Origin: a virus | Strand: one strand, 5' to 3' | DNA: 44,028 bases | IMG/VR virus record: IMGVR_UViG_3300017971_000422 | Location: 1-44,028 of that record | In this document: positions 1 through 43,598 of the stretch, piece after piece | Layout of the letters: each line of letters opens with the position of its first letter | Numbering within the stretch: the stretch's first letter is position 1 | Position numbers and translations under genes: made by a program | The notes under the pieces: model-generated | What the model was told of the DNA's origin: nothing | What the model saw: the letters and a program-made list of their open reading frames with translations, nothing else | Database searches by the model: none

Positions 1-528
1 ACATGTTGGCATGGATCTGAACTGGTTGAAGAGCCCTACACTGGAAGAGTAACCTTAACATTTGAAGCTCAGGACATATGGAGGTGGAAAAATCAGATAG
101 AGAGATCTTACGAATCATTATCTAATGAAGAGCAGAATAGTGATCTTCAATGGGCATGGGAAGTGATGAGAACATTAGAAGCCATAAACCTAGCCTCTCT
201 CTTTCAATATGAGGTAAGAACTAGTTTTTATTCTGAGAGATACCCTATCTTTTTCAGCTTAATTAGAGAGAGTGATGAGACTGGTGTTTCTGGCACTGGT
301 GAGGTATTGAAGGGAGTAATCCTACCAGATGGTAGAACAATTATTGAATGGATCTCTGATATTAAGTCTACTACCATATACAAATCATTCTCAGATTTCC
401 TTCAAATCCATGTTATTAGACATCCTAACAACAATCATAGACTACATATTTTGAAGGGAACTCAATGGGAGAAAGTAATAATCAGTCAGAAAGAAATAGA
501 AAAAGGAGTATGGAAGTTACACATCTAA
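1..528 (+). CDS. Hypothetical protein, 5' end cut by the window edge
   Basis: The frame is open from base 1 to the stop at 526-528, so at least 175 residues are encoded and the true start lies outside the window. A GTG-ATG pair at 163-168 could be mistaken for a start, but the upstream 54 codons are open and protein-like (rich in W, E and R), so it is more likely internal. The C-terminal half looks like a beta-rich fold, with hydrophobic stretches such as VLKGVILPDGRTIIEW. I recognise no catalytic motif, zinc site or membrane segment. It sits directly upstream of the zinc-ribbon nuclease-like gene with a 12-base gap, so the two are probably co-transcribed. Function unknown. Confidence 0.6.
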   Translation, partial: TCWHGSELVEEPYTGRVTLTFEAQDIWRWKNQIERSYESLSNEEQNSDLQWAWEVMRTLEAINLASLFQYEVRTSFYSERYPIFFSLIRESDETGVSGTGEVLKGVILPDGRTIIEWISDIKSTTIYKSFSDFLQIHVIRHPNNNHRLHILKGTQWEKVIISQKEIEKGVWKLHI

Positions 529-540
529 TAGGTGATTAAT

Positions 541-1557
541 ATGGACAATGAAACGATGTTATGTTTGAGTTGTAAAAAGGTAGAGGTTCATGACAATATA
601 GCCAAAGGAGTAAATATTTGTAGGAACTGTGGCTTCATCAACCTAGAAGATCCTAATGATAGGGATGTAAAATATTATGTTGCTTATATTCAGGATGAGG
701 ACAAACTTAGCAAATACTATCCTAGAACCCAACAGAAAATCATCAATCGGTATAATGCTTCTCTAACTGAGTGGTGGATTTGTAAGAATGATGAATGTCA
801 AGCATGGAGCTTATGGGAAAATCTAGACAAGGGTTGTGGTAGTGTTAGATGCCCAAAGTGTGGTGAAATGAATCTACAAGGCAGTGTTAGGTTATTCAAG
901 GGATGTCCTATATGTGCTAAGTCCCTTGATAAACACTACATCCATAGAGATACAAAACAGAACTATGTCCTCTCTAATTCTTCTAAAGGAGATGACCCTG
1001 CCTGTTTTATCATCTATCCAACCAAAGCTGAACTAGAGGATTCTGAATATTTTGATAAAAAGAGGGATACAAACTTCATCATTATCGATCCATCAGCTAA
1101 AATGGACATGCCTACCATCATGATTAGAGGACATAAGTTCATGGACAATTACATCATAGATTTCTTTAATGAATGGGCTATATCAACTAAAGAACTTATA
1201 GAATATATTTCTAAAATAGCTGATGTATCTAATGATTACAATAGAAAATTAGAAATACATATAGAAAGTGGTGGGGTTGGCAGTATTTTCAAAGCAGAAT
1301 TAACCAAGAAACTATTTGGTTCAGAAATAATCAAGATAAAAAACAAACATGTTAAAATATTAGATAGTAAATTCTATTTCAAACATAAAATGAATCATTT
1401 AGATGATTATATATTAGATCATAGTTGGAGAGATGATAATAGAAGATGTATCTACTGTGGCAGATCAGCTCATAAGAGTTGGAGATGTTGTGATAACAAT
1501 GAATGTATAGCCAAAGAGTTACAATATGCCAAACAAGTTCATGAGGTTAGGAAGTAG
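541..1557 (+). CDS. Zinc-ribbon protein with a terminase-like RNase H nuclease core
   Basis: Start chosen at ATG 541, six bases after GGTG (531-534), rather than the in-frame GTG at 532; this gives 338 residues. Cysteine pairs at residues 8/11 and 27/30 form one ribbon. CKNDEC and CPKCG (81-108) form a second, CPIC lies near 122, and a C-terminal group has CIYCG and CC..C (303-322). Between them, residues 179-295 carry three acidic motifs in the order of the RNase H-like nuclease domain of large terminase subunits: FIIIDPSA (D183), IHIESGGVG (E242) and HLDDYILD (D288, D289, D293). The spacing of about 59 and 46 residues suits that fold. No Walker A or B motif is present, so this would be a nuclease without the packaging ATPase. 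The motifs are seen; the terminase link is inferred. A RuvC-like resolvase or a zinc-binding adaptor are alternatives. Confidence 0.55.
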   Translation: MDNETMLCLSCKKVEVHDNIAKGVNICRNCGFINLEDPNDRDVKYYVAYIQDEDKLSKYYPRTQQKIINRYNASLTEWWICKNDECQAWSLWENLDKGCGSVRCPKCGEMNLQGSVRLFKGCPICAKSLDKHYIHRDTKQNYVLSNSSKGDDPACFIIYPTKAELEDSEYFDKKRDTNFIIIDPSAKMDMPTIMIRGHKFMDNYIIDFFNEWAISTKELIEYISKIADVSNDYNRKLEIHIESGGVGSIFKAELTKKLFGSEIIKIKNKHVKILDSKFYFKHKMNHLDDYILDHSWRDDNRRCIYCGRSAHKSWRCCDNNECIAKELQYAKQVHEVRK

Positions 1558-1562
1558 ATTAA

Positions 1563-1832
1563 ATGACAGAACAATTGACAAATGAAGCCGACTGTGTTGC
1601 ATTTCAAAGTAAACTTGGATTAATAGGAAATGTAATTATGGAATTACCACTAGAAGAATATCTTGAGAAGGCTGAAAGGGCTACCACACTCGGACCAATT
1701 TTAGATCCTACCCTCTATATGAAAGGGGCTCCAAGTATGGATGAGTGGGTAGATGTAGCTAGAGCAATGAAGGAATGTAAAGACAAATTATTAAAAATTA
1801 GAGAAAAAGCTAAGAAAGAGAGAGGATTATAA
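1563..1832 (+). CDS. Small hypothetical protein
   Basis: This 89-residue gene begins five bases after the stop of the nuclease-like gene, and its TAA overlaps the next ATG (TAATG). The product looks mostly helical. A central stretch contains ELPLEEYLEKAERA, and the basic C-terminal helix (KDKLLKIREKAKKERGL) could bind nucleic acid or another protein. There is no cysteine cluster and no membrane segment. Not recognised; the tight coupling suggests it is made together with its neighbours. Confidence 0.7.
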   Translation: MTEQLTNEADCVAFQSKLGLIGNVIMELPLEEYLEKAERATTLGPILDPTLYMKGAPSMDEWVDVARAMKECKDKLLKIREKAKKERGL

Positions 1833-2275
1833 TGAAGAAAGATAAGAGAGAAATAAACTATCCAGTAATTAGAAGATGTCTCAACTATGTTACTGATCTA
1901 GGACATGTTCAGAGATCTCCAACATCGTCTTATAGCACCTTTAAACCAGATGATCCTTATGTAAAGAATCTTGATGAGAAAAAGGGAATGGACTTCAGGC
2001 TTTCTTTTTTAGGTGGATTAATAGCTGAAGATAGCCTAATCATGCCTAGAAAACTAATCTTCTTTGAAATGTTTGATATAACTCTACCTGTTGATGAGTA
2101 TAGGGATTATGTCACTCCTATCTGTTCTATGCCCGACTGTGACAAACAAGAATCATATCTAAGCACATGTATTTCTTGTGGTAAGAAAATCTGCTTCAGG
2201 TGTGAACATGAACATGTTGAAAACAACAGGTGTCCTTTCTGTTTTGAAAAATTTGAAGAAATAAAGGATGAGTAA
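1832..2275 (+). CDS. IBR/RING-like zinc-binding protein
   Basis: This is a 147-residue protein starting at a TAATG overlap, with GAGAGGAT as ribosome binding site. The first 95 residues are not recognised. Residues 98-137 are a dense metal site: C98-x4-C103-x9-C113-x2-C116-x4-C121-x2-C124, then H126 and H128, then C134-x2-C137. The order C-x4-C, C-x2-C-x4-C-x2-C, H, C resembles the in-between-RING (IBR) zinc domain of eukaryotic RBR ubiquitin ligases, and the final CPFC resembles the last pair of a RING finger. Structure-forming cysteines are seen; any ubiquitin-related role is not supported and convergence is quite possible. The tandem repeat at 2271-2290 begins at its stop codon. Confidence 0.65.
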   Translation: MKKDKREINYPVIRRCLNYVTDLGHVQRSPTSSYSTFKPDDPYVKNLDEKKGMDFRLSFLGGLIAEDSLIMPRKLIFFEMFDITLPVDEYRDYVTPICSMPDCDKQESYLSTCISCGKKICFRCEHEHVENNRCPFCFEKFEEIKDE

Positions 2276-2290
2276 CTACCAGTAACTACT
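2271..2290 (+). repeat. Two tandem copies of a 10-bp unit after the IBR-like gene
   Basis: The unit AGTAACTACC occurs at 2271-2280 and again, with the last base changed to T, at 2281-2290. The first copy overlaps the TAA stop of the upstream gene. The same unit occurs twice in tandem in the next gene gap (2532-2551). Short direct repeats in two consecutive gaps could be a protein binding site in DNA or mRNA; the function is unknown. Confidence 0.8.
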
Positions 2291-2310
2291 CACTCAGGAT
2301 GATGAAGTAA

Positions 2311-2526
2311 ATGACTAGCCATGAGTTAGAATGTAAGAATAAAGATATAATTCCAGAACTTGTAAGGATATATATTGATGGAGGTGGGGATGTATTTCTG
2401 AGTGATATGAGTGATATGCACTCCAGAGATATGATGATATATTATTGTCCTTATTGTGGAGAACTATTGAACAAATGTAAAGAATGTTTAGAAAAATTAA
2501 TCATAAAGGAAAACGAAAAGGATTAA
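2311..2526 (+). CDS. Small zinc-ribbon protein
   Basis: This is a 71-residue protein. The C-terminal half has CPYCG (about 46-50) followed by CKEC (about 56-59), two CxxC knuckles that can hold one zinc ion in a rubredoxin-type ribbon. The N-terminal half includes IYIDGGGDVFLSDMSDMH, with no recognised domain. It lies between the two copies of the tandem repeat pair. Such single-ribbon proteins are common in archaea and their viruses, often as transcription or replication accessories, but no specific role can be assigned. Confidence 0.7.
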   Translation: MTSHELECKNKDIIPELVRIYIDGGGDVFLSDMSDMHSRDMMIYYCPYCGELLNKCKECLEKLIIKENEKD

Positions 2527-2531
2527 ATACT

Positions 2532-2551
2532 AGTAACTACCAGTAACTACC
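2532..2551 (+). repeat. Second pair of the 10-bp tandem repeat
   Basis: Perfect copies of AGTAACTACC lie at 2532-2541 and 2542-2551, between the zinc-ribbon gene and the ribbon-helix-helix gene. The Shine-Dalgarno of the next gene (AGGTGA, 2556-2561) begins five bases later. Because that next gene encodes a likely DNA-binding protein, an operator for self-regulation is one possible reading; this is inference. Confidence 0.8.
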
Positions 2552-2566
2552 ATACAGGTGAATGAT

Positions 2567-2830
2567 ATGCCAAAGGCAGCAACAATTGGATTAACAACAG
2601 AAACGAAAAAACTATTGAGAGAATTGAAAGTAGGAGATCCGGGCTATGAGGATAGTTTTGAGGACACTGTATTACACCTCATTACCATAATCAAAGGTAT
2701 GGATGAAGCATTCAAAGTAGCAAGGGTAGAAGTGGATAAGTCTACTTTCAAGAAGATTGGGAAGAGGTTTAAAGAGAAGGTGAAAGGTAGAGCATTTGAG
2801 GTCTATCTAAAAATAGTGAGAGGTAAGTGA
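2567..2830 (+). CDS. Ribbon-helix-helix (CopG/Arc-type) DNA-binding protein
   Basis: Start set at ATG 2567, five bases after AGGTGA, instead of the in-frame GTG at 2558; 87 residues. The N-terminus (KAATIGLTTETKKLLRELK) has a short strand with alternating hydrophobic residues followed by a helix. A second helix follows (FEDTVLHLITIIKGM), which is the pattern of a ribbon-helix-helix repressor that binds the major groove as a dimer. The C-terminal part is very basic (KKIGKRFKEKVKGRA). The family is widespread in archaea and their viruses as small transcription regulators. The adjacent tandem repeats are candidate binding sites. Confidence 0.65.
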   Translation: MPKAATIGLTTETKKLLRELKVGDPGYEDSFEDTVLHLITIIKGMDEAFKVARVEVDKSTFKKIGKRFKEKVKGRAFEVYLKIVRGK

Positions 2831-2832
2831 GA

Positions 2833-3141
2833 ATGAGGAATATATTTGAAATAGTGGAAGCATTAAATAGTAACTATGGAATGAATATCAATACTCCAAA
2901 TGGTTCAATCTGGGATAAGGACTTACGAATTGATGTTAGAAGAGGCATCACAATTGAAGAGATACTCCTAATAGTAGAGGGATTGGTCAAGAACGGTTAC
3001 AAACCAAAACCACTAGAACTAGAAATAATCAATGGAAAAACAATCATTAATGATAGGAAGAAAGAAATAAAGACTACCATTGATATACTAATAGTAATAC
3101 CATTAAAGGATGAAATAGAGAATAGAGGAATACAGAAATGA
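2833..3141 (+). CDS. Hypothetical protein, tandem paralogue of the next gene
   Basis: Start taken at ATG 2833 (an in-frame GTG at 2827 is less well placed); 102 residues, overlapping the next gene by four bases. It contains ITIEEILLIVEGLVKNGYKP, which matches IDIEELMKFVEELRNNGYNV in the following protein. Both end in a strand-like segment with a PL or PI pair (IVIPLK, MVPIIK). The two therefore look like a tandem duplication. No metal site or membrane segment is visible. Unknown function. Confidence 0.65.
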   Translation: MRNIFEIVEALNSNYGMNINTPNGSIWDKDLRIDVRRGITIEEILLIVEGLVKNGYKPKPLELEIINGKTIINDRKKEIKTTIDILIVIPLKDEIENRGIQK

Positions 3142-3440
3142 AAGATATAACACAAATAATCAATGATTTCTTTGTTACTAAGAATGGATATGTATATGTT
3201 TCCAAAGTAACATTACACCTAAAGCCTCTAGCTGTAGAGTTTCCAGATGGAATAGACATTGAAGAACTAATGAAATTTGTTGAAGAATTGAGAAATAATG
3301 GCTATAATGTTAGACATATTACTTCTACAATTATAGGAAAACCAGAGACTATAAGGGAACCATTAGCTCATAGGTTTTCAATGAGTGTAAAATCAGCAGT
3401 AATGGTTCCAATAATCAAAATGGATAATGAGAAAAGATAA
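3138..3440 (+). CDS. Hypothetical protein, tandem paralogue of the preceding gene
   Basis: This 100-residue gene starts within the last four bases of its paralogue (ATGA overlap), so translation is probably coupled. The shared core is the helix IEELMKFVEELRNNGYNV (about 39-56). The N-terminal half (YVYVSKVTLHLKPLAVEFP) looks like two strands. Fold likely alpha/beta; function not recognised. Confidence 0.65.
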   Translation: MKDITQIINDFFVTKNGYVYVSKVTLHLKPLAVEFPDGIDIEELMKFVEELRNNGYNVRHITSTIIGKPETIREPLAHRFSMSVKSAVMVPIIKMDNEKR

Positions 3441-3463
3441 AAATAAATAGAGAGTGATTTATT

Positions 3464-4183
3464 ATGGCGTTTGAGGATTTTGAAGAAGATGATGAACTAC
3501 AAGAGAGAGAACAGAAAGAGTTAGCCAAACTAGAGGAAGAAGAGAAGAAGGCTAAAACTAAAAAGAAAAAACCTAAGAAGAAAAAGGCAACGGGTCCAAA
3601 ACCCGCACCTAAACCAACTGAGGTTAAAGATTCAACAGGTAGAGCAGATACCGTCAATGTAACTGAGGTTGAATGGGCATGGGAAGAACCAATCAAGAAC
3701 CTTCAAGAATCTGTAGCTGAACTCAAAGATCACGAAAAACAACTACAACAAATGATGAGGTCAGTTATGCAAAGAGCTGAAAAACTAGAAAATAGGGCTG
3801 AGACTTCTACAGTAGCTACCAGAACATTGAGACAATTTGTAGAATCCAATAAAGTAGATATTAATGAATATGCTGAATGTATCCACACACTTGAGCAGAG
3901 GATAACCAGCATTGAAGGGTTGGCATTACTAGAAGTTACTGAGGATACAACGATCATACCTAATCATGGTATAGTAATGACCAATCAAAATGACATCAAT
4001 GAGATATTAAAACTTGAAGAAGAATTCATAGACCTCATTGAACTGGTAAGGATTAGAAGGATGGATAGGATCAAAGAGTATGATGAAAAACATGGCACTA
4101 GCATTAAAACTACTGCTGGAGCTACAGCAGAACTTACCAAACTCTCCAGAAAGATCTTCAATATGATTAGGGAGTTGAAATAA
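3464..4183 (+). CDS. Acidic/basic low-complexity and coiled-coil protein
   Basis: This 239-residue protein has GTGAT placed five bases before its ATG. The first 30 residues are extremely acidic, followed by a lysine block (about 31-45: KTKKKKPKKKK) and a proline/lysine linker. Residues 75-160 are predicted coiled coil with regular leucine/isoleucine spacing (IKNLQESVAELKDHEKQL onward). The C-terminal third is helical. The shape suggests a nucleic-acid-binding or scaffolding protein, for example a clamp or packaging accessory, but no family is recognised. Its TAA overlaps the next ATG. Confidence 0.7.
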   Translation: MAFEDFEEDDELQEREQKELAKLEEEEKKAKTKKKKPKKKKATGPKPAPKPTEVKDSTGRADTVNVTEVEWAWEEPIKNLQESVAELKDHEKQLQQMMRSVMQRAEKLENRAETSTVATRTLRQFVESNKVDINEYAECIHTLEQRITSIEGLALLEVTEDTTIIPNHGIVMTNQNDINEILKLEEEFIDLIELVRIRRMDRIKEYDEKHGTSIKTTAGATAELTKLSRKIFNMIRELK

Positions 4184-4635
4184 TGGGAGAAAGAAAAACA
4201 GAGACTAGAACCATAGTCATAGAACTCGAATATACAGAGGGTCAGAGAGGGGAAACATTTGACTATGTATATGTTGGACTGGAAAAGTTGCTATGGGGAT
4301 TTAGAGGAGATCCAGATATTGATGTTACTGACATCTATCATGAAATTGGATCATTAACAGATCCAAAAGAATCAATAAAGAAGAAGGTAGAGAAGAAATC
4401 TGGTTATATGGAATCTCATCATTGTAAGTATTCTGAATTTAACTGTAACAGATGTAGGAGTAGAATCAAAACCAACTATGGTAGTGAAACTCATAAGACT
4501 GGTAGATGTCCTCCATGTAGAGGAGTGAAGGGTTCTGATAGGCTCTATTGTGATATATTTAAATTATTCCCTGACATTGAATATTGTCAAACTAACTGTC
4601 CTGTAGGAGATATATGCAAGTATATAAAGAGGTAA
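4183..4635 (+). CDS. Cysteine-rich zinc protein
   Basis: This is a 150-residue protein beginning at a TAATG overlap with a GGGAG binding site. The N-terminal 75 residues are alpha/beta (RTIVIELEYTEG). From residue about 82 there are at least nine cysteines plus histidines: HHCKYSEFNCNRCRSR, CPPCRG, then C...C..NCPVGDIC at the end. This suggests two zinc sites. The last 22 bases overlap an upstream in-frame extension of the next gene, but not its likely true start. Role unknown; DNA or RNA binding is plausible for such knuckles. Confidence 0.65.
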   Translation: MGERKTETRTIVIELEYTEGQRGETFDYVYVGLEKLLWGFRGDPDIDVTDIYHEIGSLTDPKESIKKKVEKKSGYMESHHCKYSEFNCNRCRSRIKTNYGSETHKTGRCPPCRGVKGSDRLYCDIFKLFPDIEYCQTNCPVGDICKYIKR

Positions 4636-4640
4636 TAGTA

Positions 4641-5291
4641 ATGGCTAATTGTATTCAATGTTGTTATCGTAGAGGGAATGATTGTATCCTAGATCATAAG
4701 CTAGAGGGTCATTGTCAGGATATGGGCAACGGTCTCTGGCTTACATGTCCTCATTGTGAGAAATGGGTAGACAATATCCCTCATAATCCTGAACATGTGT
4801 TTGATGATGCTAAAATGGAAATCATGTGTGCTGAATCTAATCTCTGTGGCTGTCACACCATGAAACCAGTGATAGACCATTACACCAGAGCAGAGCTTGT
4901 TAAGATGAGAGATGAAGAACCTCTCTTCTTTGCAGTGCATTATGAACATAATTTTAATGTATGGTATCTCATGGCGATCTATGAATATCCTCTAGATACT
5001 GGTAATCCAATCAGAGATAGAGGAAGGTGGATAAATCATCATCCTTTCATTAGACTTGATAGGAATGAACATGGTAGACCTTACTTTGAATTGGCTAGAG
5101 AGGTCATCAAAGCTAGGACTGAAAACATGTGTCCTCACAGAGTTAGACCTCATATCACCTTAGATGAAGATGGTTTCCAATGGACTAGAAAGAAGGTTGG
5201 TTGGATTTGTGTCTTAGAATCATCATGCAACTTTGGCGATGAATGTACTGAAGCTGACTATAAGTATTGTTATTTAGAAGGTAAAGAATAA
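4641..5291 (+). CDS. Cysteine/histidine-rich hypothetical protein
   Basis: Start set at ATG 4641, preceded by GAGGTAAT, rather than ATG 4614 inside the previous gene; 216 residues. The N-terminus (MANCIQCCYRRGNDC) and CPHCEKW (about 39-45) plus C..CGCH (about 70-76) form zinc-type clusters. The middle (about 90-150) looks alpha/beta with aromatic residues (FFAVHYEHNFNVWYLMAIY). A final group of cysteines (CVLESSCNFGDEC, then C near the end) may hold another metal ion. A role in nucleic-acid metabolism would fit its neighbours but is not shown. Confidence 0.65.
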   Translation: MANCIQCCYRRGNDCILDHKLEGHCQDMGNGLWLTCPHCEKWVDNIPHNPEHVFDDAKMEIMCAESNLCGCHTMKPVIDHYTRAELVKMRDEEPLFFAVHYEHNFNVWYLMAIYEYPLDTGNPIRDRGRWINHHPFIRLDRNEHGRPYFELAREVIKARTENMCPHRVRPHITLDEDGFQWTRKKVGWICVLESSCNFGDECTEADYKYCYLEGKE

Positions 5292-5452
5292 TGACTAAGG
5301 AATCTAAAGAACTGATAGATGTATTAGAAGAGCATACAGGTAACACGCCTGAAGCTGATACTATTCCCATTCCACCAAAGATGAGAGCATGGTTAATGAA
5401 TCAACCAGAATATAAGGAAGGATGTAGAAATGATGTCGAAGAGAGAGAATAG
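5291..5452 (+). CDS. Small hypothetical protein (53 residues)
   Basis: The gene starts at a TAATG overlap with the previous stop, and its 3' end overlaps the next gene by about 20 bases, the same close coupling as its neighbours. The product begins MTKESKELIDVLEEHTG, continues with a proline-rich linker (TIPIPPKMRAWLM) and ends in a charged tail. No motif is recognised. The start-stop coupling and protein-like composition support it as a real gene. Confidence 0.6.
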   Translation: MTKESKELIDVLEEHTGNTPEADTIPIPPKMRAWLMNQPEYKEGCRNDVEERE

Positions 5453-6152
5453 AATTCTATGGCTATTGGACAAGGAGTTTGATAGGATAGTAAAAGAGAG
5501 ATCATTCCTAGCTCATTTTGGTCATGAAAAGTATGATGCTGATAGGATGCTTATTACAATACAAGTAGGCACTGCCTTTGAAAATGATCTATTAGATCAA
5601 TTCTATGCTAAGGAAATGGTTATGGAGTTAAATGATATGCTTCCAGATACTAAGGATGATCTAGGGATTAAAATGATTACTCAGATTGCTCATTCATTGG
5701 TCAATAATGTAGAAAAGGAATTCATCATCAAGTTCATTGAGAAGTATCCTAAATCTTTTACTGGTAGATATAACTCATTACCAATATGTTTTACAGATAT
5801 GTCTAATAATGTGAATGGATTAAAAGACCTAATCATTATAGAACATCCTAAAATGAAAATGGAGTATATAAAGGATGCTTCATTTACAGGGACATATCAA
5901 GCACTATCTGAATGTGAGAAAGGAGCAAAATATCCTAGACTATATGGTGTTCCAGTAATTACTACTTGTAACTGTCCTGAAGATAAATTTGTGGTAATTC
6001 CTACAAAAGAATTGGATATATGGTATCGTTATTCTCAACCAGTTAGTTTCGATAGTCCTTATAATTCAAAGAGAAAGACTAGAATACAAAGTGATGGAAT
6101 ATTCAAGTATTATTTTATTCAATGGTGTTGGAGTTGTTTACATGACAGATAA
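5430..6152 (+). CDS. Hypothetical protein (240 residues)
   Basis: Two adjacent ATGs (5430 and 5433) follow AAGGAAGGA; either may be used. The first 110 residues are helical and charged (WLLDKEFDRIVKERSF). The second half is more beta-like, with GTYQALSECEKGAKYPRLYG and a CNC pair (about 185-187) followed by FVVIPTKELDIWYRY. I do not recognise a family. No catalytic triad, nucleotide-binding loop or membrane helix stands out. Confidence 0.65.
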   Translation: MMSKRENRILWLLDKEFDRIVKERSFLAHFGHEKYDADRMLITIQVGTAFENDLLDQFYAKEMVMELNDMLPDTKDDLGIKMITQIAHSLVNNVEKEFIIKFIEKYPKSFTGRYNSLPICFTDMSNNVNGLKDLIIIEHPKMKMEYIKDASFTGTYQALSECEKGAKYPRLYGVPVITTCNCPEDKFVVIPTKELDIWYRYSQPVSFDSPYNSKRKTRIQSDGIFKYYFIQWCWSCLHDR

Positions 6153-6570
6153 AATGAAATTGCGTAATATAGAATTGAGTATAGAACAGATCAAAGACTC
6201 TATAGCTGATATTAATACAAAATTATTGTCTCTACAGAACCAACCAATAATCATACAGGCTAAAGATCATTTTGAAGTCTATGAGAAGATGCAAAAGATG
6301 TTTACTGAACATGGAGCTAGTCCATTGAGACCATTAATCATATTCCCTTATGATGATGCTAGAGTAACAGACACACTCATGGTTGGTATTAATAATATAA
6401 ATAAAGAGTTAGATGAACCTAAACCTTGTCGTGATTGTGGTAAACTGACCGATCCAGTTACTAGATATGTAGAGGTTCAGTATGAGAACGGACAGCCAAT
6501 AGCAATACACTATTACTGTGGAGAGGCATGTAAGGATACCTTCTATATGTGTCAGTGGACAGATGAGTGA
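6142..6570 (+). CDS. Hypothetical protein with C-terminal zinc knuckles
   Basis: Start placed at ATG 6142 with GGAG upstream, giving 142 residues and an 11-base overlap with the previous gene; the longer frame from 6091 would overlap by 62 bases. The N-terminus (IELSIEQIKDSIADINTKLL) is a probable coiled coil. Near the C-terminus CRDCG and CGEAC are separated by about 30 residues, suggesting one zinc site. Unknown role. Confidence 0.65.
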   Translation: MTDKMKLRNIELSIEQIKDSIADINTKLLSLQNQPIIIQAKDHFEVYEKMQKMFTEHGASPLRPLIIFPYDDARVTDTLMVGINNINKELDEPKPCRDCGKLTDPVTRYVEVQYENGQPIAIHYYCGEACKDTFYMCQWTDE

Positions 6571-6575
6571 TTGTA

Positions 6576-7124
6576 ATGAAAGATGGAGAAAGGTTCAGAT
6601 ATACAGGAAAACAGTCAACTTTTGACTTAGACCAGTTTGAACTCACTGCTGGTCAAAAGTTAATGGTCAAATCATATTTGGTGATATTTGGTCAGGTATT
6701 CCTATTTAAGAATGATAGAGATGAATGGGAAGTAATTAGTCCATTAGAATTTCAGATGGAGATGTTTACTGACAGGGATCAAAATATAACAAGGAAGGAA
6801 TTGATATATAGGGCTAATATTGATTCTAATAAGGATCTTCCTAAAGGATATACCTGTTCTGAGTTTATAGTGGATGAAATGATTAAACTCCCAGATGATG
6901 TAATAGAGAAGTCAATAGAGATATATAACAATTTGATGAATAAGAGTTCTGGTTACAGTATTTCAGCCACTACTCCTAGTTCTGGTAAGGGTTATACTCC
7001 TATTCCCAATTGTAAGGATTATAATATGTCTAGCTTCCCTCATCCAATATGTGATGGTTGTTTCTATCATATAGACAATTTATGCTTGTATGTCCCTGAC
7101 AATGGAGCTGCTACTAGTGAGTGA
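6576..7124 (+). CDS. Hypothetical protein (182 residues)
   Basis: Start taken as ATG 6576 after GTGATT; a GTG at 6567 is in frame but overlaps that ribosome binding site. The N-terminal half contains strands such as KSYLVIFGQVFLF and an acidic stretch. The middle is helical (DDVIEKSIEIYNNLM). The C-terminus has C...C..C...C (CKDYN..., CDGCF, CLYV) that may bind metal. The 3' end overlaps the next gene by eight bases if that gene starts at GTG 7117. Not recognised. Confidence 0.65.
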   Translation: MKDGERFRYTGKQSTFDLDQFELTAGQKLMVKSYLVIFGQVFLFKNDRDEWEVISPLEFQMEMFTDRDQNITRKELIYRANIDSNKDLPKGYTCSEFIVDEMIKLPDDVIEKSIEIYNNLMNKSSGYSISATTPSSGKGYTPIPNCKDYNMSSFPHPICDGCFYHIDNLCLYVPDNGAATSE

Positions 7125-7449
7125 TAGATTGCCTGAAGACTGGAGACCACCATACCCTCTCCATTCAAGTCCATATTCAAGAAGGATTAAAGAAATAATC
7201 GAAAACCTACCAGAATTTAGAATGCTTTGTATCTATATTAGGATAGATCATAAAAAGGTAAATAAATTAGATATGTATGTTGATCTATCTACTAAAGGTA
7301 GTTCTGGTAAAGTAATATTGGTATCTAAGAATTGTCATGGTAAAGTAAATGCAATTACTAGATACCCCTTTAGAATAAAGAAACGCCTGTTCAGATCACC
7401 CAAAATAATATGGTCTAACATGATTGATAATAATTATGGTGAAGAATAA
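7117..7449 (+). CDS. Small hypothetical protein with an SDRLPEDW N-terminus
   Basis: GTG 7117 is preferred because GGAG (7104-7107) precedes it by nine bases. The resulting N-terminus, (M)SDRLPEDWRP, also matches MSDKLPEDWLP of the 57-residue membrane protein encoded at 33348-33521. An upstream in-frame ATG at 7090 would add nine residues. The 110-residue product is basic in its C-terminal half (RYPFRIKKRLFRSPK). No membrane segment, no cysteine cluster. The shared N-terminus may be a docking or targeting signal used by two proteins of the same virus. Confidence 0.6.
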   Translation: MSDRLPEDWRPPYPLHSSPYSRRIKEIIENLPEFRMLCIYIRIDHKKVNKLDMYVDLSTKGSSGKVILVSKNCHGKVNAITRYPFRIKKRLFRSPKIIWSNMIDNNYGEE

Positions 7450-7772
7450 TGACAATTATGACAATGAAAGAGTTTGTAAGAATATTACAGAGAAATAAAC
7501 ATACCTATAGTCCTAATGATTTAGGAATAATTCAAGATATGATTGATAATGAGTTCGATATTGAAGATGCCCAAAGCCTTATAGAAGTCAATGTTCATAT
7601 TGGTGATGTCCAGAATAGGACTCACTATGTTAAGAAGGCTAATCATATTGTTATGGATGATATTAGATGTATATTAAGTATCAAATATCGGAAGACTGTA
7701 GAAGATATGAAGAAGTTACAAGAGAAGAAAATGAAGATAGCTCGACAAATGAAAGTTATGAGAGGTAAATAA
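7449..7772 (+). CDS. Small helical protein
   Basis: This is a 107-residue product starting at a TAATG overlap, with GGTGAAG as binding site. It is almost entirely helical, with the acidic middle section DMIDNEFDIEDAQSLIE and a strongly basic C-terminal helix (DMKKLQEKKMKIARQMK). It sits immediately before the PD-(D/E)XK nuclease gene (three-base gap) and may act with it. Family not recognised. Confidence 0.65.
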   Translation: MTIMTMKEFVRILQRNKHTYSPNDLGIIQDMIDNEFDIEDAQSLIEVNVHIGDVQNRTHYVKKANHIVMDDIRCILSIKYRKTVEDMKKLQEKKMKIARQMKVMRGK

Positions 7773-7775
7773 ACG

Positions 7776-9068
7776 ATGCCATATAAAATAGGAGATAAAG
7801 AATATCATAGGGTTACTGAGGTAACTGGTGCAGGAGAATGTCTTGCTACTGCCAAAGGCGTAAAAGAGGGTGATGTCAAGGTAGCCACAACTACACCATT
7901 GGCTGGAACCCTAGTGCATTTACGAATAGAAAACTATCTTAGAAAGATGTGTGACCTACACCCAAAACCATTATCATTTGGAGAACCAACCAATCTGATA
8001 TGGAGAAAGGTTAGAGAGAACCACATTAGACAAAAGAAGAAAAATAAAGACGCTATCACATCATACGAAGCTATAATGAAGAAGGCTGGTAAATGTTGGG
8101 AGAATTTTCTGGACTTTATGAATGATTACTCATCATTTAGACCAGTTTGTGAACATATTGAGAGTAAAGTATACAGTGATAAACTAGAATATGCTGGAAC
8201 TGCTGACATCATCTTCGTTATGCCATTGAAGGGTAAGAGAAGGTCATTCAGTCATGATAAAACGGGTCCGACCAAAGAATTCAAGTCTTATGAGTATTTC
8301 TTAGAGTGTGACAGAGATCAGAAATATAAAAAAGAGAAGGACAAGAGATGTCCTAAGTATGAAGGTTCTGGAAAGAATAAAATACTATTACCTGAATGTG
8401 ATTGTCAATGGGAAATGGTTATAACTTTAGGAGACTGGAAGACAAGTTCTAGAAAACAGGCAGGTCATGAAAGACAGCTTAGTGCCTATCATCAGGCTTG
8501 TGAAGAGATGGGTATTTGGGATAAGTTTAGAAACATGGGCAAAGATAGTGGCGGTGAAGGTTATACCATTAATTGGGAGTGTTGGTCACTCTTATTAGGA
8601 GACCATAATGTTAAGTCGGTAGATGAGAACTACAGATTATTTAGGTATGAGCCATACATCAACGGTTTTTTAGTGTCCTCAAGGAGTTTTCAAGATCCAA
8701 GAGATATATCAATAAACGAAAGGGGAGATATAGGACTAAAAGGAAGATGTATGTTCTGCAACCACGTTCTAACATGTCCAGATCGGGTCATATGGTCAAA
8801 CATGGAGAAACGTCAGCTATCTTTGAACCCTCTGACACCAGAAGAGATCAAGAAAGGATTAGCAATCTTAGAAGGACTAGAAAGAAAAGGCGTTCTGGTA
8901 GAAGACCTAGTAAGTAAATTTAAAAGGATGAAAAGAGTAAACGATGTGATAGCTTCTTTAGAAGACCTTGATGATGAGATAATTAGAGATCTTACCAATT
9001 TCTGTGAGATACCTAATGACCATTGGACCGATTCAGAGGAAATGGAAATAGAAGAAGTGGAAGAATAA
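7776..9068 (+). CDS. Cas4/AddB-like PD-(D/E)XK nuclease with Fe-S cysteines
   Basis: This 430-residue protein carries the motifs of RecB-family nucleases in order. H48 lies in GTLVHLRIE, D144 in AGTADIIF, D220-x-K222 in LGDWKTSS, and Q234/Y238 in RQLSAYHQ. C325-x2-C328-x5-C334 (CMFCNHVLTC) near the C-terminus plus C22 near the N-terminus reproduce the four-cysteine pattern that holds a 4Fe-4S cluster in Cas4 and AddB. Extra cysteines at 192, 208 and 210 may add a metal site in an insertion. Known relatives cut or resect DNA, so a role in recombination, replication or genome processing is likely. The last 60 residues are acidic. It is the final gene of the plus-strand block, facing the tail genes. 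Confidence 0.85.
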   Translation: MPYKIGDKEYHRVTEVTGAGECLATAKGVKEGDVKVATTTPLAGTLVHLRIENYLRKMCDLHPKPLSFGEPTNLIWRKVRENHIRQKKKNKDAITSYEAIMKKAGKCWENFLDFMNDYSSFRPVCEHIESKVYSDKLEYAGTADIIFVMPLKGKRRSFSHDKTGPTKEFKSYEYFLECDRDQKYKKEKDKRCPKYEGSGKNKILLPECDCQWEMVITLGDWKTSSRKQAGHERQLSAYHQACEEMGIWDKFRNMGKDSGGEGYTINWECWSLLLGDHNVKSVDENYRLFRYEPYINGFLVSSRSFQDPRDISINERGDIGLKGRCMFCNHVLTCPDRVIWSNMEKRQLSLNPLTPEEIKKGLAILEGLERKGVLVEDLVSKFKRMKRVNDVIASLEDLDDEIIRDLTNFCEIPNDHWTDSEEMEIEEVEE

Positions 9069-23200: not shown

Positions 23201-25753
23201 TTAATCTCCTAATGCTCCTACAAATCCAGCCATAGCTACTCTTATGGCATCTCCTAATGCTATTGTATTTTCAGATAGTCTATCAATCATCAATTTAAGA
23301 TAATTTACATGACCAAGTAATATTTCTTGTTCACTCATATTCTCATCTCCCAATTTACTAATATGATCTTGAATTTCTTTTATTCTTGATTCTAATGATT
23401 TTATTTCCATTTTCCTAGTTGGTTCTGCTTCTTCAAAATATGATCTGGTAGAAGGAACCCTAATCATTGTTCTAGGAATTAATGCCTCACCCTCTCCTGA
23501 CTCACCCAATTCCTCAGCACTCATAAGACCAGCCATTGCTGTGAATTCTTTCCTCTCCTTCAATTTCTTCTTTCCTTCCTCCGTAAATATTTCTGATTCC
23601 TTAGCAGATATTGGAGAACCCATTTTTTTAGTCATTCTGGTGTATGCCTCTGATCCTAATACCCTTCTTGCCATACCCTCATCGGTTTCAGCTATCAATT
23701 CTTCAAGCTTGGCAGCACTTTTCATGGAATCATAGCCCTGAGCTATATCCCTGTTGCGAACAAGAACCATCTTGGTATAGCCTTCATTATATGCCATCCT
23801 GTTTATCTCGGTCATTATATCAGAATCGGATAATCCTTTCTCCTTTAATTTATTGACATATTTGTCAATAAACCCCATAGCCCAACCAGCCTCAAATCCA
23901 AATTTGGATATTCTATTAGCAGCAATTAATGAGGAAGTATCTAGTTCCCATTTGTCTATATCGAACTCTTCCCCTTCTTCCTCCTCTGGTGTCTCTGTTG
24001 GACTGGGAACATCTTCTTTTACGCTCTCTCTGGCTTTTCTCTCTTTTTCCCTTTTCTTCCTTTCCTTTTCAATCTTAATATCTTCTTGCATTATTTCAGC
24101 TATCTTATAGGTCTCTATATCATGTTCTAACGTTGTTTCATGTCTCACTGCCTTTCTCAGTCTCTTCATCCTATCTTTTTTACTTCCCTTACCACGTGCT
24201 ATATATTGATTGATTAAGAAGTTAAATATTTCTGGCTCTTCACTGACTGCATGAAATACCTCTTCATATAACTCATTCAGTTCAGCACCAGCCTCTAACC
24301 TTTCTAATTCTTTCTTCTCTTTTTTAGTTAATTTTTTCTTTTCACCTAGTTTAATAGATCTTCTAATTCTACTCTGCCAAGCAGTAAATTTTGTCAATCT
24401 TTTTACTGGTGGTTTTATCTTTGCTATCTCTTCAGTAGTTAAATCATCAATATCCTCTTTTTCTCTCTCTGCTGTAAACTGTTGTGCTTTTCTCATGGCT
24501 TTGGAAATATAGGGAAGACCACCATATGCAGCTCCAGCTCTAATCAATACTTCTGGATCTATCCCAATAAATGATCCCCATGCTTCAGCCCTTTCTCTAC
24601 TATGACTGATATGTTGTAGCGTCCATCCATATAGTTCGCTTTGCGATGGTAATTCACCAGCAGGATAGTTTCTTATCCTTTCTGAAATATCAGCCTGTAA
24701 TGATTGCATTAAACTCTGATCTACCTTAATCAACTCAGCCTGAAATGATGGCAACTGTTTCTCCATCTGCCCATAGGTCATCGGAACAAATTCTTCGTCT
24801 TCAATTTTTCCGAGCAAACCAGCAGCCATTAAATTCATGCCAAGTGTTTGAGCAATATAAGGTAGTTCAGCAGCAGCAGGTCCAGTCATCTTTCTCATTG
24901 ATAATACTCTTAATGGATGTATTGCTGGAGTGCCAGATTCAGGTCTTAATACGTCCATTAAACTAGCATAGGGAGCATCTGGAAACAATCTCTTACCTTC
25001 ATACATTCTTTCTCCAGCTCTATAAGCACGTATCCGTTGTAACACATCCGTTTGACCATACCTAGCTACCTGTGCTGCACCAGATATATTAAATTTTCCA
25101 GTTTTAAACTCATTAATCATTTGTGTTAATAAGTCTACTGCTCCTCCTCCCATCGGAGCCTCTGCCTTTGCACCAACTTCTCTACCAAGACTTTCAAAAA
25201 CTGCTCCAAGAATAGGGTGCATATCAGCCATTTTAAAGGTTGCAGATTGTAGTTCCTCTATTATTGATTGCATACCTCTTTCATAAATAGTGCCACCACT
25301 AGACACCATTCCACCAAATCTATAGAATACTTTATTCAATGCTGCCTCTGCTCTAGCATGAGCTGTAATTTTTTCTTCATCCTCTAGTGCATATCCTATT
25401 TGACCAAATGTTAATGGAACACCCTCTTCCGTTTCATATCCAGCAAATGGACTGAGTAATGTATCTAGCTCTGTCATAAAGTCTCTTATTAATTCTCTCC
25501 TAGTTCTCTCATTCACATCTCCAAAAGTTAACTGTCCTAACTGTTCTTGTAAAACATCAATAATCCTCTCCAAGTTCATCATATGATAGGGTGTTCCTAG
25601 AGGTTGTGCTACAGTTGATTCTATCCTTTCAAGTCTATTTTCTAAATCCTGAATGATCTCGTTATTGTCAAAGTTTATAACATCATCTAACACCTCTGAT
25701 GTGTCAATCTTTACCTTTACTTGGAGAGTAGAATCATTGTCACTAGGAGTCAT
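23201..25753 (-). CDS. Tail tape measure protein
   Basis: At 850 residues this is the longest protein, lying directly after the tail chaperone with its frameshift extension, the fixed position of the tape measure gene. It is mostly alpha-helical with long charged segments (KKEKKELERLEAGAELNELY; EREKEDIDDL; EKERKKREKERKARE). A Pro/Glu-rich linker lies at about 570-590 (SPTETPEEEEGEEFD). No transmembrane helices are obvious, unlike many tape measures. Using the known rule of about 0.15 nm per residue, the tail would be near 125 nm. The start overlaps the chaperone extension by 11 bases. Confidence 0.75.
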   Translation of the reverse strand: MTPSDNDSTLQVKVKIDTSEVLDDVINFDNNEIIQDLENRLERIESTVAQPLGTPYHMMNLERIIDVLQEQLGQLTFGDVNERTRRELIRDFMTELDTLLSPFAGYETEEGVPLTFGQIGYALEDEEKITAHARAEAALNKVFYRFGGMVSSGGTIYERGMQSIIEELQSATFKMADMHPILGAVFESLGREVGAKAEAPMGGGAVDLLTQMINEFKTGKFNISGAAQVARYGQTDVLQRIRAYRAGERMYEGKRLFPDAPYASLMDVLRPESGTPAIHPLRVLSMRKMTGPAAAELPYIAQTLGMNLMAAGLLGKIEDEEFVPMTYGQMEKQLPSFQAELIKVDQSLMQSLQADISERIRNYPAGELPSQSELYGWTLQHISHSRERAEAWGSFIGIDPEVLIRAGAAYGGLPYISKAMRKAQQFTAEREKEDIDDLTTEEIAKIKPPVKRLTKFTAWQSRIRRSIKLGEKKKLTKKEKKELERLEAGAELNELYEEVFHAVSEEPEIFNFLINQYIARGKGSKKDRMKRLRKAVRHETTLEHDIETYKIAEIMQEDIKIEKERKKREKERKARESVKEDVPSPTETPEEEEGEEFDIDKWELDTSSLIAANRISKFGFEAGWAMGFIDKYVNKLKEKGLSDSDIMTEINRMAYNEGYTKMVLVRNRDIAQGYDSMKSAAKLEELIAETDEGMARRVLGSEAYTRMTKKMGSPISAKESEIFTEEGKKKLKERKEFTAMAGLMSAEELGESGEGEALIPRTMIRVPSTRSYFEEAEPTRKMEIKSLESRIKEIQDHISKLGDENMSEQEILLGHVNYLKLMIDRLSENTIALGDAIRVAMAGFVGALGD

Positions 25754-25961
25754 TAGATTTTTCCTCTATGAATTCATCTTGCTTTAGTTCCATTCCCTCA
25801 AAGGGATTGAAACCCATATTCTCTAATGTATTCCCAATCAATAAAAATAATACCTTTGTGGTAGAAAACTCCCTAAGCTCCTCAATAGAAGAGAATTTAA
25901 CAAATTTAGAATGAAAGGTGTAATATGCCCACCCGTCAGGTGTTTGGAGATAGTCTAAGAC
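25743..25961 (-). CDS. Frameshift extension (T part) of the tail assembly chaperone
   Basis: From the slip at 25961 the -1 frame is open for 72 codons and ends in TAG at 25743-25745, inside the start of the tape measure gene. The peptide begins VLDYLQTPDGWAYYTFHSKF and includes ELREFSTTKVLFLLIGNTL and NPFEGMELKQDEFIEE. It is not preceded by its own well-placed start. The normal product would be the fusion of 142 residues of the chaperone with these 72. Lambda G/GT and many myophage chaperones work this way, with the long form present in minor amounts during tail assembly. Confidence 0.75.
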   Translation of the reverse strand, partial: VLDYLQTPDGWAYYTFHSKFVKFSSIEELREFSTTKVLFLLIGNTLENMGFNPFEGMELKQDEFIEEKSNDS

Positions 25962-26386
25962 TTTTTTTTAAAGAGCCTAGTAGATTTAGATAACGCTTCA
26001 ATTGCCTTACCAACAGAAACACACAACCCATAAGGCATACCTAATGCCTGTTCCATTGAAGGCACTGATGGATCTACCATTCCCTTCCAACATAGACAAG
26101 CTCTAAATGATCGTATATCTTCTCTATAGATCTGTCCTATGTCCTGAAGTTCCCCAAATGGTAGGGCTTTAATTTTTATTTTATATATCTTCCCCTCATA
26201 TTCAAATTCCCTCTCTACTATTTGATGTGACATCCTAAGTAAATCAGGGAAGCTAGGAACAATAGCAGCACTCTCAGGTTCAGATGTTTGAACATCAGAT
26301 TTGGTTCCAGCCTCAGATTGAACACTAGAAGGTTGAGGGTTTCTAGGATTAGGTATTAAATCCTTTCTATGGGGCTCTCTTGCCAT
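25955..26386 (-). CDS. Tail assembly chaperone (G part)
   Basis: ATG 26386 is preceded by GTGATTGTT; 143 residues (the in-frame GTG at 26395 is part of the ribosome binding site). A disordered N-terminus rich in P, S and E (about 1-45) is followed by DLLRMSHQIVEREFEYEGKI (strand region) and KIKALPFGELQDIGQIYRED, with a helix near the end. The C-terminus is SKSTRLFKKKS, and the KKK codons form the slippery heptamer. The product is found between tube and tape measure in tailed phages and keeps the tape measure soluble. Confidence 0.75.
   Translation of the reverse strand: MAREPHRKDLIPNPRNPQPSSVQSEAGTKSDVQTSEPESAAIVPSFPDLLRMSHQIVEREFEYEGKIYKIKIKALPFGELQDIGQIYREDIRSFRACLCWKGMVDPSVPSMEQALGMPYGLCVSVGKAIEALSKSTRLFKKKS
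25961..25967 (-). promoter_or_regulatory. -1 ribosomal frameshift site (A AAA AAG)
   Basis: The minus strand reads TTT AAA AAA AAG TCT TAG in the chaperone frame. This contains A AAA AAG in the correct phase, the same heptamer as the dnaX site of Escherichia coli. Slippage gives a 214-residue fusion product. A small CACC-TGACG-GGTG hairpin lies about 30 bases downstream; it is farther than usual and may not be the stimulator. Confidence 0.75.
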
Positions 26387-26445
26387 AACAATCACAAAGA
26401 AAAATAAGGATGATTAGGCTTATAAGGGTTGGGATGACGATGAGG

Positions 26446-39470: not shown

Positions 39471-40001
39471 TTATATTTTCGTTTTCCAGCGACCAGTCAC
39501 ATTATCGAAGTCAGTGAGGTTCTTATGTCCAGATTCACTTATTTTGCTTTCACCAAAGACTAATTCCTGTAACTTACGGGTCTTAGCCTCTTTTACAAGG
39601 GCTTCTTTAGGGATTCCAACAGGTGAGTTGGGAGACTGAGAGGTGCTTTCGGTCACTAAAGACTTGGAATTAGATGTGATTATGGCAGGAGTAGTATCCT
39701 TTGTGGCTTCATAGACCTCTTTTAGCACCTTCAGTCTTTCCTCTAACCTACCGTCATCCATTTCGGATAAGTCTAATTTTCTGAGATTTTTCTCAGTTTC
39801 AGGGATTTTACCCATCTTTATTTCAAGGTCCAAGACCTCTTCTACAATCTCTAATTTCCTCTTGGCTTCAGCTTCAGCTACTTGTTTCTTAAGTAACTCA
39901 TTCTGTTCTTTAATAGATTTTAGAGATTCGATTTCTTCTCTTAACAATTTTTCTCTTTCTAGAGCTTTTCTTAAATCATTATTATCTGGTTCTGCACTCA
40001 T
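39471..40001 (-). CDS. Possible nested scaffold product from an internal start
   Basis: In the protease/scaffold gene, codon 313 (ATG at 39999-40001, MSAEPDNNDLRK) follows GGAG at nine bases, in the same frame. The 176-residue product would be the coiled-coil scaffold alone, as seen with lambda C/Nu3. This is an inference from the ribosome binding site. Confidence 0.4.
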   Translation of the reverse strand: MSAEPDNNDLRKALEREKLLREEIESLKSIKEQNELLKKQVAEAEAKRKLEIVEEVLDLEIKMGKIPETEKNLRKLDLSEMDDGRLEERLKVLKEVYEATKDTTPAIITSNSKSLVTESTSQSPNSPVGIPKEALVKEAKTRKLQELVFGESKISESGHKNLTDFDNVTGRWKTKI

Positions 40002-41019: not shown

Positions 41020-41065
41020 TGGGGCTAAAATAGAGGAAAAAGGGCTAAAATGAGGTAAAAAATTA
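41020..41065 (-). terminator. Multiple T-tracts after the portal gene
   Basis: After the portal stop, the minus strand has TTTTTT, TTTT, TTTTT, TTTT and TTTTT clusters, with the decamer ATTTTAGCCC repeated twice. No stem is visible. Such clusters mark transcription ends in archaea; the promoter-like TATA box follows at once. Confidence 0.5.
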
Positions 41066-42703
41066 TTTAGGGGTTTTGGATTTATTGTTCTTTTCAGCAT
41101 CTCTATCTGATCGTTTTTGTTGTGGTTTTGTAGCAGTGTCTTTTCCACCCTTTGATCTGACAGTGCCACTTTTACTATCACCATCTCCACCCTCATTATC
41201 GGCTCCAGAAATGACACCTAACAGTTCCATATCTTTCTGGAACTCTTTGTCTTGGTCTAATACCAATTCACCTTCAGGTTTGGGTTGATAGCCCAAGTCC
41301 TTTCTGGTCTCCTCTCTGGTGGTTAGACCAAATCTGAACAAATTCTCCAGTCTTATACGATATTCCTCTTCAGATTCTATCGGATTCCAATGTAATTCAG
41401 GGATATAATCAATGGTTTCTGGAGTAATTTCTTCAACTCCACAAATCTGAGGGAACAATTTCATTTCTATTTCAGAACGGATATAACCCTGTATAGTCTT
41501 AATTAGACGTGAAAAGGCTTCTAATTGGGTTTTAGCAGTGGCTTCAGTGGTAGATTTGCCCTGACCCATGAGGATTTCAGGAACACCAAAGCCTAGCAAG
41601 ACATAGGACAATGCTATCTGGAAATATCCTTCCAAGTCCATTGTAGCCTTTCCAGCACTTAAAACCTCAGCCTGAACCAATGATGAGGTGATAATATGAG
41701 CATTAGACATTACATCAGCTACCAATTCACTTCTAATGTATTCTAGGGTCTCTGGTGTAGCTGGTATATCATCTGTCCCAACCCTGAAGAAGAAGGTCGG
41801 ACCTGCATAATTTCTTACAATGATACCTATATCTTCAAACATTCCTAGTAGCACTGCGATACCGTCTTTCATGGCTTCTAGAGGTGAATTTCCGTAGGCT
41901 TCAGAGGGCTTAGGATTCCATTTTAGATGTATAATTTCTTCAGGAGCAAACCAGATATAGCCTTTGTCTTTGGCATCCTTCATAAATACTTCTATTTGTT
42001 TGAATTTATCCTTACTATTATCGAATTTATATTCCTCGAATGGTGCTGATGGTGGTATTTGGACATAGGCTAGAACCGTTCCAGATTGGTCTCTAATAAC
42101 CCTCATCTGTTGTGGTTTGATAGGTTTGATCTGCTCGACCTTCCACCCCGACATTTTAGGGTAGCGTAAGTCCAGTAATTTCTTATGAGTAGGTGAGATA
42201 TTCTTGGGTATTTGTCCTTCCTTGACCACTTCAAAGAAGGAATCGCCATAAATCATGAGGTATTTGATTCCTAGACCTAGTTGTTTCACAAAGGAGGACG
42301 CTCTGATCCATTTCCGCAAGAGGATGATATTCTCCTTCAATTGTGGCACATCATCTTGGCTCTTGTCCTCTGAAATGAGGTGGTCAGGAGCTTTGATCTT
42401 GAACCCTGACTGCATGACCCAATCGCTCATAATGTCTACCGATCTCTGGCAAAATGGGATTCTCTCATACATTCGCTCATATGTCTCTTTGAAGTATTTT
42501 TGTTCCTCTACCTGAAAGAGCCACTTCATGGTGTCGTGATATTGTTGTGATCGGTTAAACATTGGATTATTAGTAGTGACTATCGCCTTCCCACTTTCTT
42601 GAAAGAATTGTCGTATTTTTTGTTGCTGGTAGACCATATTTGCCACATTTGGGGTCGGTGGCACTAGTTCATTCATCTTTGTTTGTGTTATATTTACAGC
42701 CAT
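41063..42703 (-). CDS. Portal protein
   Basis: This 546-residue protein has the portal pattern. It shows FCQRSVDIMSDWVMQSGFKI (about 74-93), YGDSFFEVVKEG, WFAPEEIIHLKWNPKPSEAYG followed by NSPLEAMKDGIAVLLGM (wing domain), IALSYVLLGFGVPEILMGQGKS with ATAKTQLEAFSRLIKTIQGY, and LHWNPIESEEEYRIRLENLF. This matches the stem, clip and wing arrangement of dodecameric phage portals. The C-terminal 60 residues are charged and disordered. AAGGATAAAAAA precedes the ATG. It docks the terminase and receives the DNA. Confidence 0.9.
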   Translation of the reverse strand: MAVNITQTKMNELVPPTPNVANMVYQQQKIRQFFQESGKAIVTTNNPMFNRSQQYHDTMKWLFQVEEQKYFKETYERMYERIPFCQRSVDIMSDWVMQSGFKIKAPDHLISEDKSQDDVPQLKENIILLRKWIRASSFVKQLGLGIKYLMIYGDSFFEVVKEGQIPKNISPTHKKLLDLRYPKMSGWKVEQIKPIKPQQMRVIRDQSGTVLAYVQIPPSAPFEEYKFDNSKDKFKQIEVFMKDAKDKGYIWFAPEEIIHLKWNPKPSEAYGNSPLEAMKDGIAVLLGMFEDIGIIVRNYAGPTFFFRVGTDDIPATPETLEYIRSELVADVMSNAHIITSSLVQAEVLSAGKATMDLEGYFQIALSYVLLGFGVPEILMGQGKSTTEATAKTQLEAFSRLIKTIQGYIRSEIEMKLFPQICGVEEITPETIDYIPELHWNPIESEEEYRIRLENLFRFGLTTREETRKDLGYQPKPEGELVLDQDKEFQKDMELLGVISGADNEGGDGDSKSGTVRSKGGKDTATKPQQKRSDRDAEKNNKSKTPK

Positions 42704-42830: not shown

Positions 42831-43574
42831 TTAACCGACAGGGATGAGGGTGAGACCAGAAAGGAGAGGGTTGACCTGAGCGTTCATGACCAGTGTAGAG
42901 GGGAGAATGATATGATTGGTGTCTTTGCCTTTACTGACCACAATACTATATTTGAGGTCTTTAATAGAAGGCACTGGTGGGTAGCCAATCTCCTTAAAGA
43001 CATGTTGAAAATCGGGGGCTTCTAGGCATGATTCTACCTTCCCAACATAATCCCATTCATTGGATTTGTCGGGCTCGTAGTCTAGGGACTTTGGGGTTCC
43101 TTGCGTGGTATAATGTTCGGTAAGGTTGGGGTCTAGTTGGGGGGCGGTTTCCAAATTAGTAAACGATGTCCTATCATTTTCAACTTTTCCTCCACCGGAT
43201 TTTTTAGCTTTAGAGGTCTTGGCTTTAGACGAGACCTTAGAGGACTTTTCTTCTTCAGGAATGGCAAGGTCGGACAAAGTATTAATGCCAGAACGGATAT
43301 ACATATAGCGACCTAAGTAGGTATATTTCCTTCCTCTGATGGTGGTCGTTTGTTTGGGTCGGATACGTAGCCTGAAGTTCTTCATCAATTTTTTATTATA
43401 TTCTGCCAATGCCCTCTCATACTCCTGCACTTTGGCAAGAATAATTGGGGCTCCGTCAATGACTAGGTAGGCTCCTGCCTGTTGGAAGAATGCCTCCTGT
43501 TGCACCTTTTCTTCTTGGTATTGGGCTGTGCGGGGCTCCATACCTCTCAGGCTAGGGGTGTTTTTATAGGGCAT
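42831..43574 (-). CDS. Hypothetical protein upstream of the portal
   Basis: The frame opens at ATG 43598, but ATG 43574 after AAAGGATATAAT is more likely; 247 residues. The first 90 residues look helical, with the basic run LMKNFRLRIRPKQTTTIRGR. A low-complexity lysine/serine segment follows (SKVSSKAKTSKAKKSGGGK). The C-terminal part has alpha/beta pieces (IKDLKYSIVVSKGKDTNHII). The local GC (about 50 per cent in places) is higher than in most of the window. Its position before the portal fits a small terminase or packaging accessory, but no motif supports it. Family unknown. Confidence 0.55.
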   Translation of the reverse strand: MPYKNTPSLRGMEPRTAQYQEEKVQQEAFFQQAGAYLVIDGAPIILAKVQEYERALAEYNKKLMKNFRLRIRPKQTTTIRGRKYTYLGRYMYIRSGINTLSDLAIPEEEKSSKVSSKAKTSKAKKSGGGKVENDRTSFTNLETAPQLDPNLTEHYTTQGTPKSLDYEPDKSNEWDYVGKVESCLEAPDFQHVFKEIGYPPVPSIKDLKYSIVVSKGKDTNHIILPSTLVMNAQVNPLLSGLTLIPVG

Positions 43575-43598
43575 ATTATATCCTTTGGGTCCTTTCAT

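Follow-up and report, generated by a model that had tools for sequence, protein, structure and literature searches.

P0001, an orphan zinc-rich protein with a possible RNase H-like core, encoded by a contractile-tailed virus

RuvC-type Holliday-junction resolvases combine an IDP-type first motif with a D-E-D acidic triad, and the spacing between their first two motifs is similar to that in P0001, the viral protein described here. RuvC is not known to carry zinc ribbons, unlike P0001. Jumbo phages are described as sharing the two-domain large terminase subunit (TerL) without exception, and the nuclease domain of this protein as common to all tailed viruses (PMC7824862). In the Bastillevirinae, group I introns divide the TerL coding sequence into separate open reading frames (ORFs) (PMC11878797). 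Among the contigs compared in the present work, the 984-residue terminase of Bacillus phage KLEB27-3 (L006:5296-8247) holds an intein. The terminase of Staphylococcus phage S-CoN_Ph27 (L210:4366-5692) is annotated as 349 residues and its C-terminal part lies in another frame downstream; the gene is therefore frame-disrupted or misassembled.

We tentatively favour the view that P0001 is an orphan zinc-ribbon protein with a divergent RNase H-like core of the terminase-nuclease or RuvC type. This reading is drawn from sequence, and it is weighed below against three others.

The virus fragment and its packaging genes

The window, by which we mean the whole stretch of DNA that was analysed, is a linear record of 44,028 bases representing a fragment of a virus. 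Small genes occupy the plus strand from 1 to 9068, and the minus strand carries late genes between 43598 and 9098. The virus is classed as contractile-tailed (a myovirus) on the basis of its portal, major capsid, sheath and baseplate genes. The genes on which the argument turns are as follows.

1..528, plus strand: upstream neighbour of P0001, truncated at its 5' end by the contig border; phrog_7499 domain (function not assigned)
541..1557, plus strand: P0001, zinc-rich orphan protein of 338 residues; ORF from ATG at 541 to stop at 1557, GGTGAT upstream
7776..9068, plus strand: exonuclease-like gene at the end of the same-strand run that contains P0001; phrog_298, E = 2.1e-10
41063..42703, minus strand: portal protein; Pfam Phage_portal, E = 7.3e-12; phrog_9232, E = 7.9e-35
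42831..43598, minus strand: 255-residue protein without assigned function, upstream of the portal, in the position of the terminase of halovirus relatives

The nearest named relatives of the portal are mostly from haloarchaeal viruses and those of the capsid from Bacillus, Moorella and Microbacterium phages, so an archaeal host is possible. Single-sequence searches with the portal and sheath proteins found no relatives of the virus and a portal scan of GTDB gave no matches. The closest virus relative found, through alignments, is contig L007 (35% identity in the portal, 41% in the capsid), which is only 5.9 kb long and has no gene upstream of its portal. Between the portal and capsid genes of the window, positions 39471-40937 (minus strand) encode a protein with the N terminus CVAKTKKSLKK..W..CVK-TGQ, conserved in L007:1744-3213; its PHROG matches are only weak, and it is probably a prohead protease or scaffold. 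Further along the late genes, the tail assembly chaperone gene (25955-26395 and 25743-25961, minus strand) has a run of eight A (25962-25969) immediately ahead of its stop codon. The -1 frame (VLDYLQTPDGW...EEKSNDS) is open as far as 25753, where the tape-measure gene starts, and a -1 frameshift in the chaperone gene is probable.

The sequence-only reading had noted the lack of a conventional full-length terminase beside the portal, and within the fragment this holds: upstream of the portal lie the 255-residue protein, encoded by the first late gene, and then approximately 430 nt of non-coding DNA up to the contig end. In halovirus relatives a complete terminase directly adjoins the portal. 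No ORF of plausible size with a Walker A motif is present in the window, and the terminase ATPase profiles PF03237 and phrog_2 gave no match. P0001 was likewise correctly described as lacking an ATPase motor motif, having no Walker A. A motor ATPase is also missing directly upstream of it, where the neighbour, whose 5' end is off the contig, carries the phrog_7499 domain. Since the window is a linear 44-kb fragment that ends approximately 430 nt beyond the first late gene, a full terminase outside it is possible.

These observations bear on a reading in which the terminase of a tailed, possibly archaeal, virus is split into two proteins, a motor ATPase and a nuclease, with P0001 as the nuclease subunit, which its zinc ribbons would tether to the motor or to DNA. 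The lack of an ATPase or full terminase in the window and in the portal flank, where halovirus relatives have one, speaks for such a division, as does the identity of the family matched by P0001, which is a terminase family (see below). We nevertheless regard a split terminase as unlikely. The motor may belong to a complete terminase elsewhere, the window being a fragment, and the gene directly upstream of P0001 is not an ATPase. Moreover, within the fragment P0001 is not beside the portal (plus strand, 541-1557, versus minus strand, 41063-42703), but sits in the accessory small-gene run instead of the late operon. A terminase gene divided by an intron was considered separately and rejected: an Rfam scan of the window for intron RNA gave no match, and P0001 has its own start.

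The P0001 ORF is a real gene, with an alternative GTG start at 532 and a ribosome-binding-like GGTGAT ahead of it. The run to which it belongs ends in the exonuclease gene, which we counted in favour of a nuclease. Other members of the run (1-9068, plus strand) are mostly without family matches, and CxxC pairs occur in 1832-2275, 2311-2526, 4183-4635 and 4614-5291. Zinc richness is thus a trait of this gene run, not of packaging enzymes. Two consecutive gaps between genes, located ahead of small zinc-protein and unassigned genes, each hold a head-to-tail pair of the 10-mer AGTAACTACC (2271-2290 and 2532-2551). The pair is a possible regulatory site, although single copies of AGTAACTACC do not exceed the number expected by chance.

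Zinc clusters and acidic motifs of P0001

P0001 contains four Cys/His clusters and, between the third and the fourth, three acidic motif candidates.

562..630, plus strand: N-terminal zinc-ribbon-like cluster, C8-x2-C11-x15-C27-x2-C30; weak likeness to archaeal TFIIB and Spt4/RpoE2
781..861, plus strand: second zinc-ribbon-like cluster, C81-x4-C86 / C99 / C104-x2-C107; Zn_ribbon_3 and similar, below Pfam cut-offs
904..945, plus strand: third cluster, C122-x2-C125-x6-H132-x2-H135, seen in the sequence
1075..1098, plus strand: acidic motif I candidate FIIIDPSA (D183), within the phrog_38 match (residues 166-276)
1255..1281, plus strand: acidic motif II candidate IHIESGGVG (E242), within the phrog_38 match
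1396..1419, plus strand: acidic motif III candidate HLDDYILD (D288/D289), outside the phrog_38 match, 46 residues past motif II
1447..1506, plus strand: C-terminal zinc-binding-like cluster, C303-x2-C306 / H311 / C316/C317-x4-C322; sequence and a sub-threshold zinc-ribbon match

Cysteine clusters on both sides of the acidic motifs, three N-terminal and one C-terminal, are thereby located as originally proposed. Five CxxC pairs give P0001 the paired knuckles of zinc-ribbon proteins; recognition of the clusters as zinc ribbons by Pfam is below cut-offs throughout. The N-terminal cluster resembles the zinc fingers of archaeal TFIIB (E = 0.02, the best of 11 in a plasmid search) and of Spt4/RpoE2 (E = 0.015), both weakly. 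A zinc finger in the linker of terminases was the idea behind a test of the middle ribbon. This identification was rejected, as the WWxC...CPxCG pattern matched more than 100 stretches and none of the 39 in-frame ORFs was a recognisable terminase. A TnpB-type nuclease, in which a zinc ribbon lies between motifs II and III, was rejected because P0001 lacks an acidic motif III beyond its C-terminal ribbon.

All three acidic motifs are present with the numbering originally given, D183, E242 and D288/D289. Their spacing, which had been described as that of the terminase nuclease, is not: motifs II and III are 46 residues apart in P0001 and 86 apart in three halovirus TerLs, a difference of 40 residues, while motifs I and II are separated by 59 residues compared with 68. 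The shortened segment could be read as a deletion, P0001 then being the decayed or truncated C-terminal half of a terminase that is no longer catalytic. We consider decay very improbable, given that the frame of 338 codons is intact and has a start of its own with GGTGAT upstream, and that elaborate zinc sites are present at both ends of the protein.

A loose form of the three-motif spacing is found by chance in approximately 4% of sequences, both among unrelated ORFs (41 of 1097) and among shuffled versions of P0001 (875 of 20000). A strict form with D/E-xx-G-x-G, in which G-x-G is required after motif II, is much rarer, with no other unrelated ORF and 5 of 20000 shuffles containing it; this form was chosen after the P0001 sequence had been seen, and of 48 genuine TerLs just 1 conforms to it. 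By eye, IHIESGGVGSIF of P0001 was likened to D/E-xx-G-x-G-xx-F, a terminase signature that reads VVMDMTGVGQGF in HRTV-8. When the three motifs were written as a degenerate DNA pattern, six contigs were retrieved from IMG/VR, four of which encode copies of a single unrelated protein. None of the six encodes a relative of P0001, and motif spacing alone is therefore non-diagnostic.

The frequency of the loose spacing raises the question of whether P0001 is a nuclease at all. It may instead be a zinc-ribbon accessory protein that binds nucleic acid or protein, acting for example on host transcription, with acidic motifs that arose by chance. Several neighbours in the run are small CxxC proteins, the N-terminal cluster has the weak likeness to transcription-related zinc fingers given above, and similar Cys pairs are widespread among viral proteins other than terminases. 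This explanation is a serious one that we nonetheless hold to be rather unlikely, for the one notable match of P0001 outside zinc families is to the nuclease region of terminases, in register with two catalytic motifs.

Homology searches and the predicted core

That match, to phrog_38 (terminase large subunit), is the sole terminase signal and a weak one, with E values of 0.0047 for whole P0001 and 0.0011 for the excised region. It aligns residues 166-276 with profile positions 542-653 and so covers motifs I and II only. D183 falls at approximately position 559 and E242 at 618, and the corresponding acidic residues of halovirus TerLs at approximately 558-561 and 618-625 (all interpolated), which suggests that the first two motifs of P0001 are in register with those of phrog_38 terminases. 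Reversed P0001 gave no terminase match, its best hit (E = 0.24) being to a family without assigned function. Other ORFs of the window reach E values of 0.007-0.01 against unrelated families, and an E value of 0.005 for P0001 is hence marginal. Two profiles of our own, one from approximately 40 terminases of halovirus-related contigs and one from 11 phrog_38-type terminases, did not detect P0001.

Nuclease relatives of P0001 were sought in Pfam, NCBIfam, PDB, phages (BLAST) and plasmids, and none was found; nor was there a match to a RuvC-type profile or PDB entry. Close relatives were absent from IMG/VR, GTDB contigs and phages, plasmids yielding zinc fingers only, and from 36 whole records of related viruses, in a search run without a positive control. 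As judged by these searches, P0001 is an orphan with no detectable close relative. It represents an orphan zinc-rich candidate nuclease from a virus lineage of which hardly any relatives have been sequenced.

Two single-sequence AlphaFold models of P0001, made with no homologs as input, have pLDDT values of 33.7 and 36, too low for the models to be usable, and two Foldseek searches gave no match at E ≤ 0.001. The order of elements in a low-confidence model, E-E-E-H-E-H, is that of the RNase H fold, a weak indication.

If P0001 does have the RNase H-like core that we favour, residues ~170-297 would form a minimal, divergent version of this domain. Its predicted order is strand-strand-strand-helix-strand-helix-strand-helix, with D183, E242 and D288/D289 as the putative metal site. 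The core would cut or nick DNA with a divalent metal, and the flanking zinc modules may bind DNA or partner proteins and so position the cut. Packaging, recombination and branch removal are all candidate purposes of such cutting.

Comparison with known terminases

P0001 is most readily compared with phrog_38 TerLs (for example that of contig L053, of the Geobacillus phage GBK2 type), which it resembles in the weak match over residues 166-276, where motifs I and II line up. It differs from them in having no ATPase half, in its zinc clusters at both ends and in a much shorter segment between motifs II and III. Two short TerL profiles, phrog_5909 (285 positions) and phrog_5713 (143 positions), align to the part of halovirus TerLs that contains the nuclease, at the C terminus; these may be pieces of genes split by introns or by annotation, and P0001 matches neither. 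The split TerLs of the Bastillevirinae are spliced back together, whereas P0001 has its own start and no Rfam intron is found in the window.

Since phrog_5909 and phrog_5713 are already in PHROGs, a nuclease-only terminase ORF is in itself nothing new; the novelty would lie in a nuclease subunit that is unspliced and zinc-decorated. Were P0001 such a subunit, a natural two-subunit terminase would separate DNA pumping from cutting, making each testable alone.
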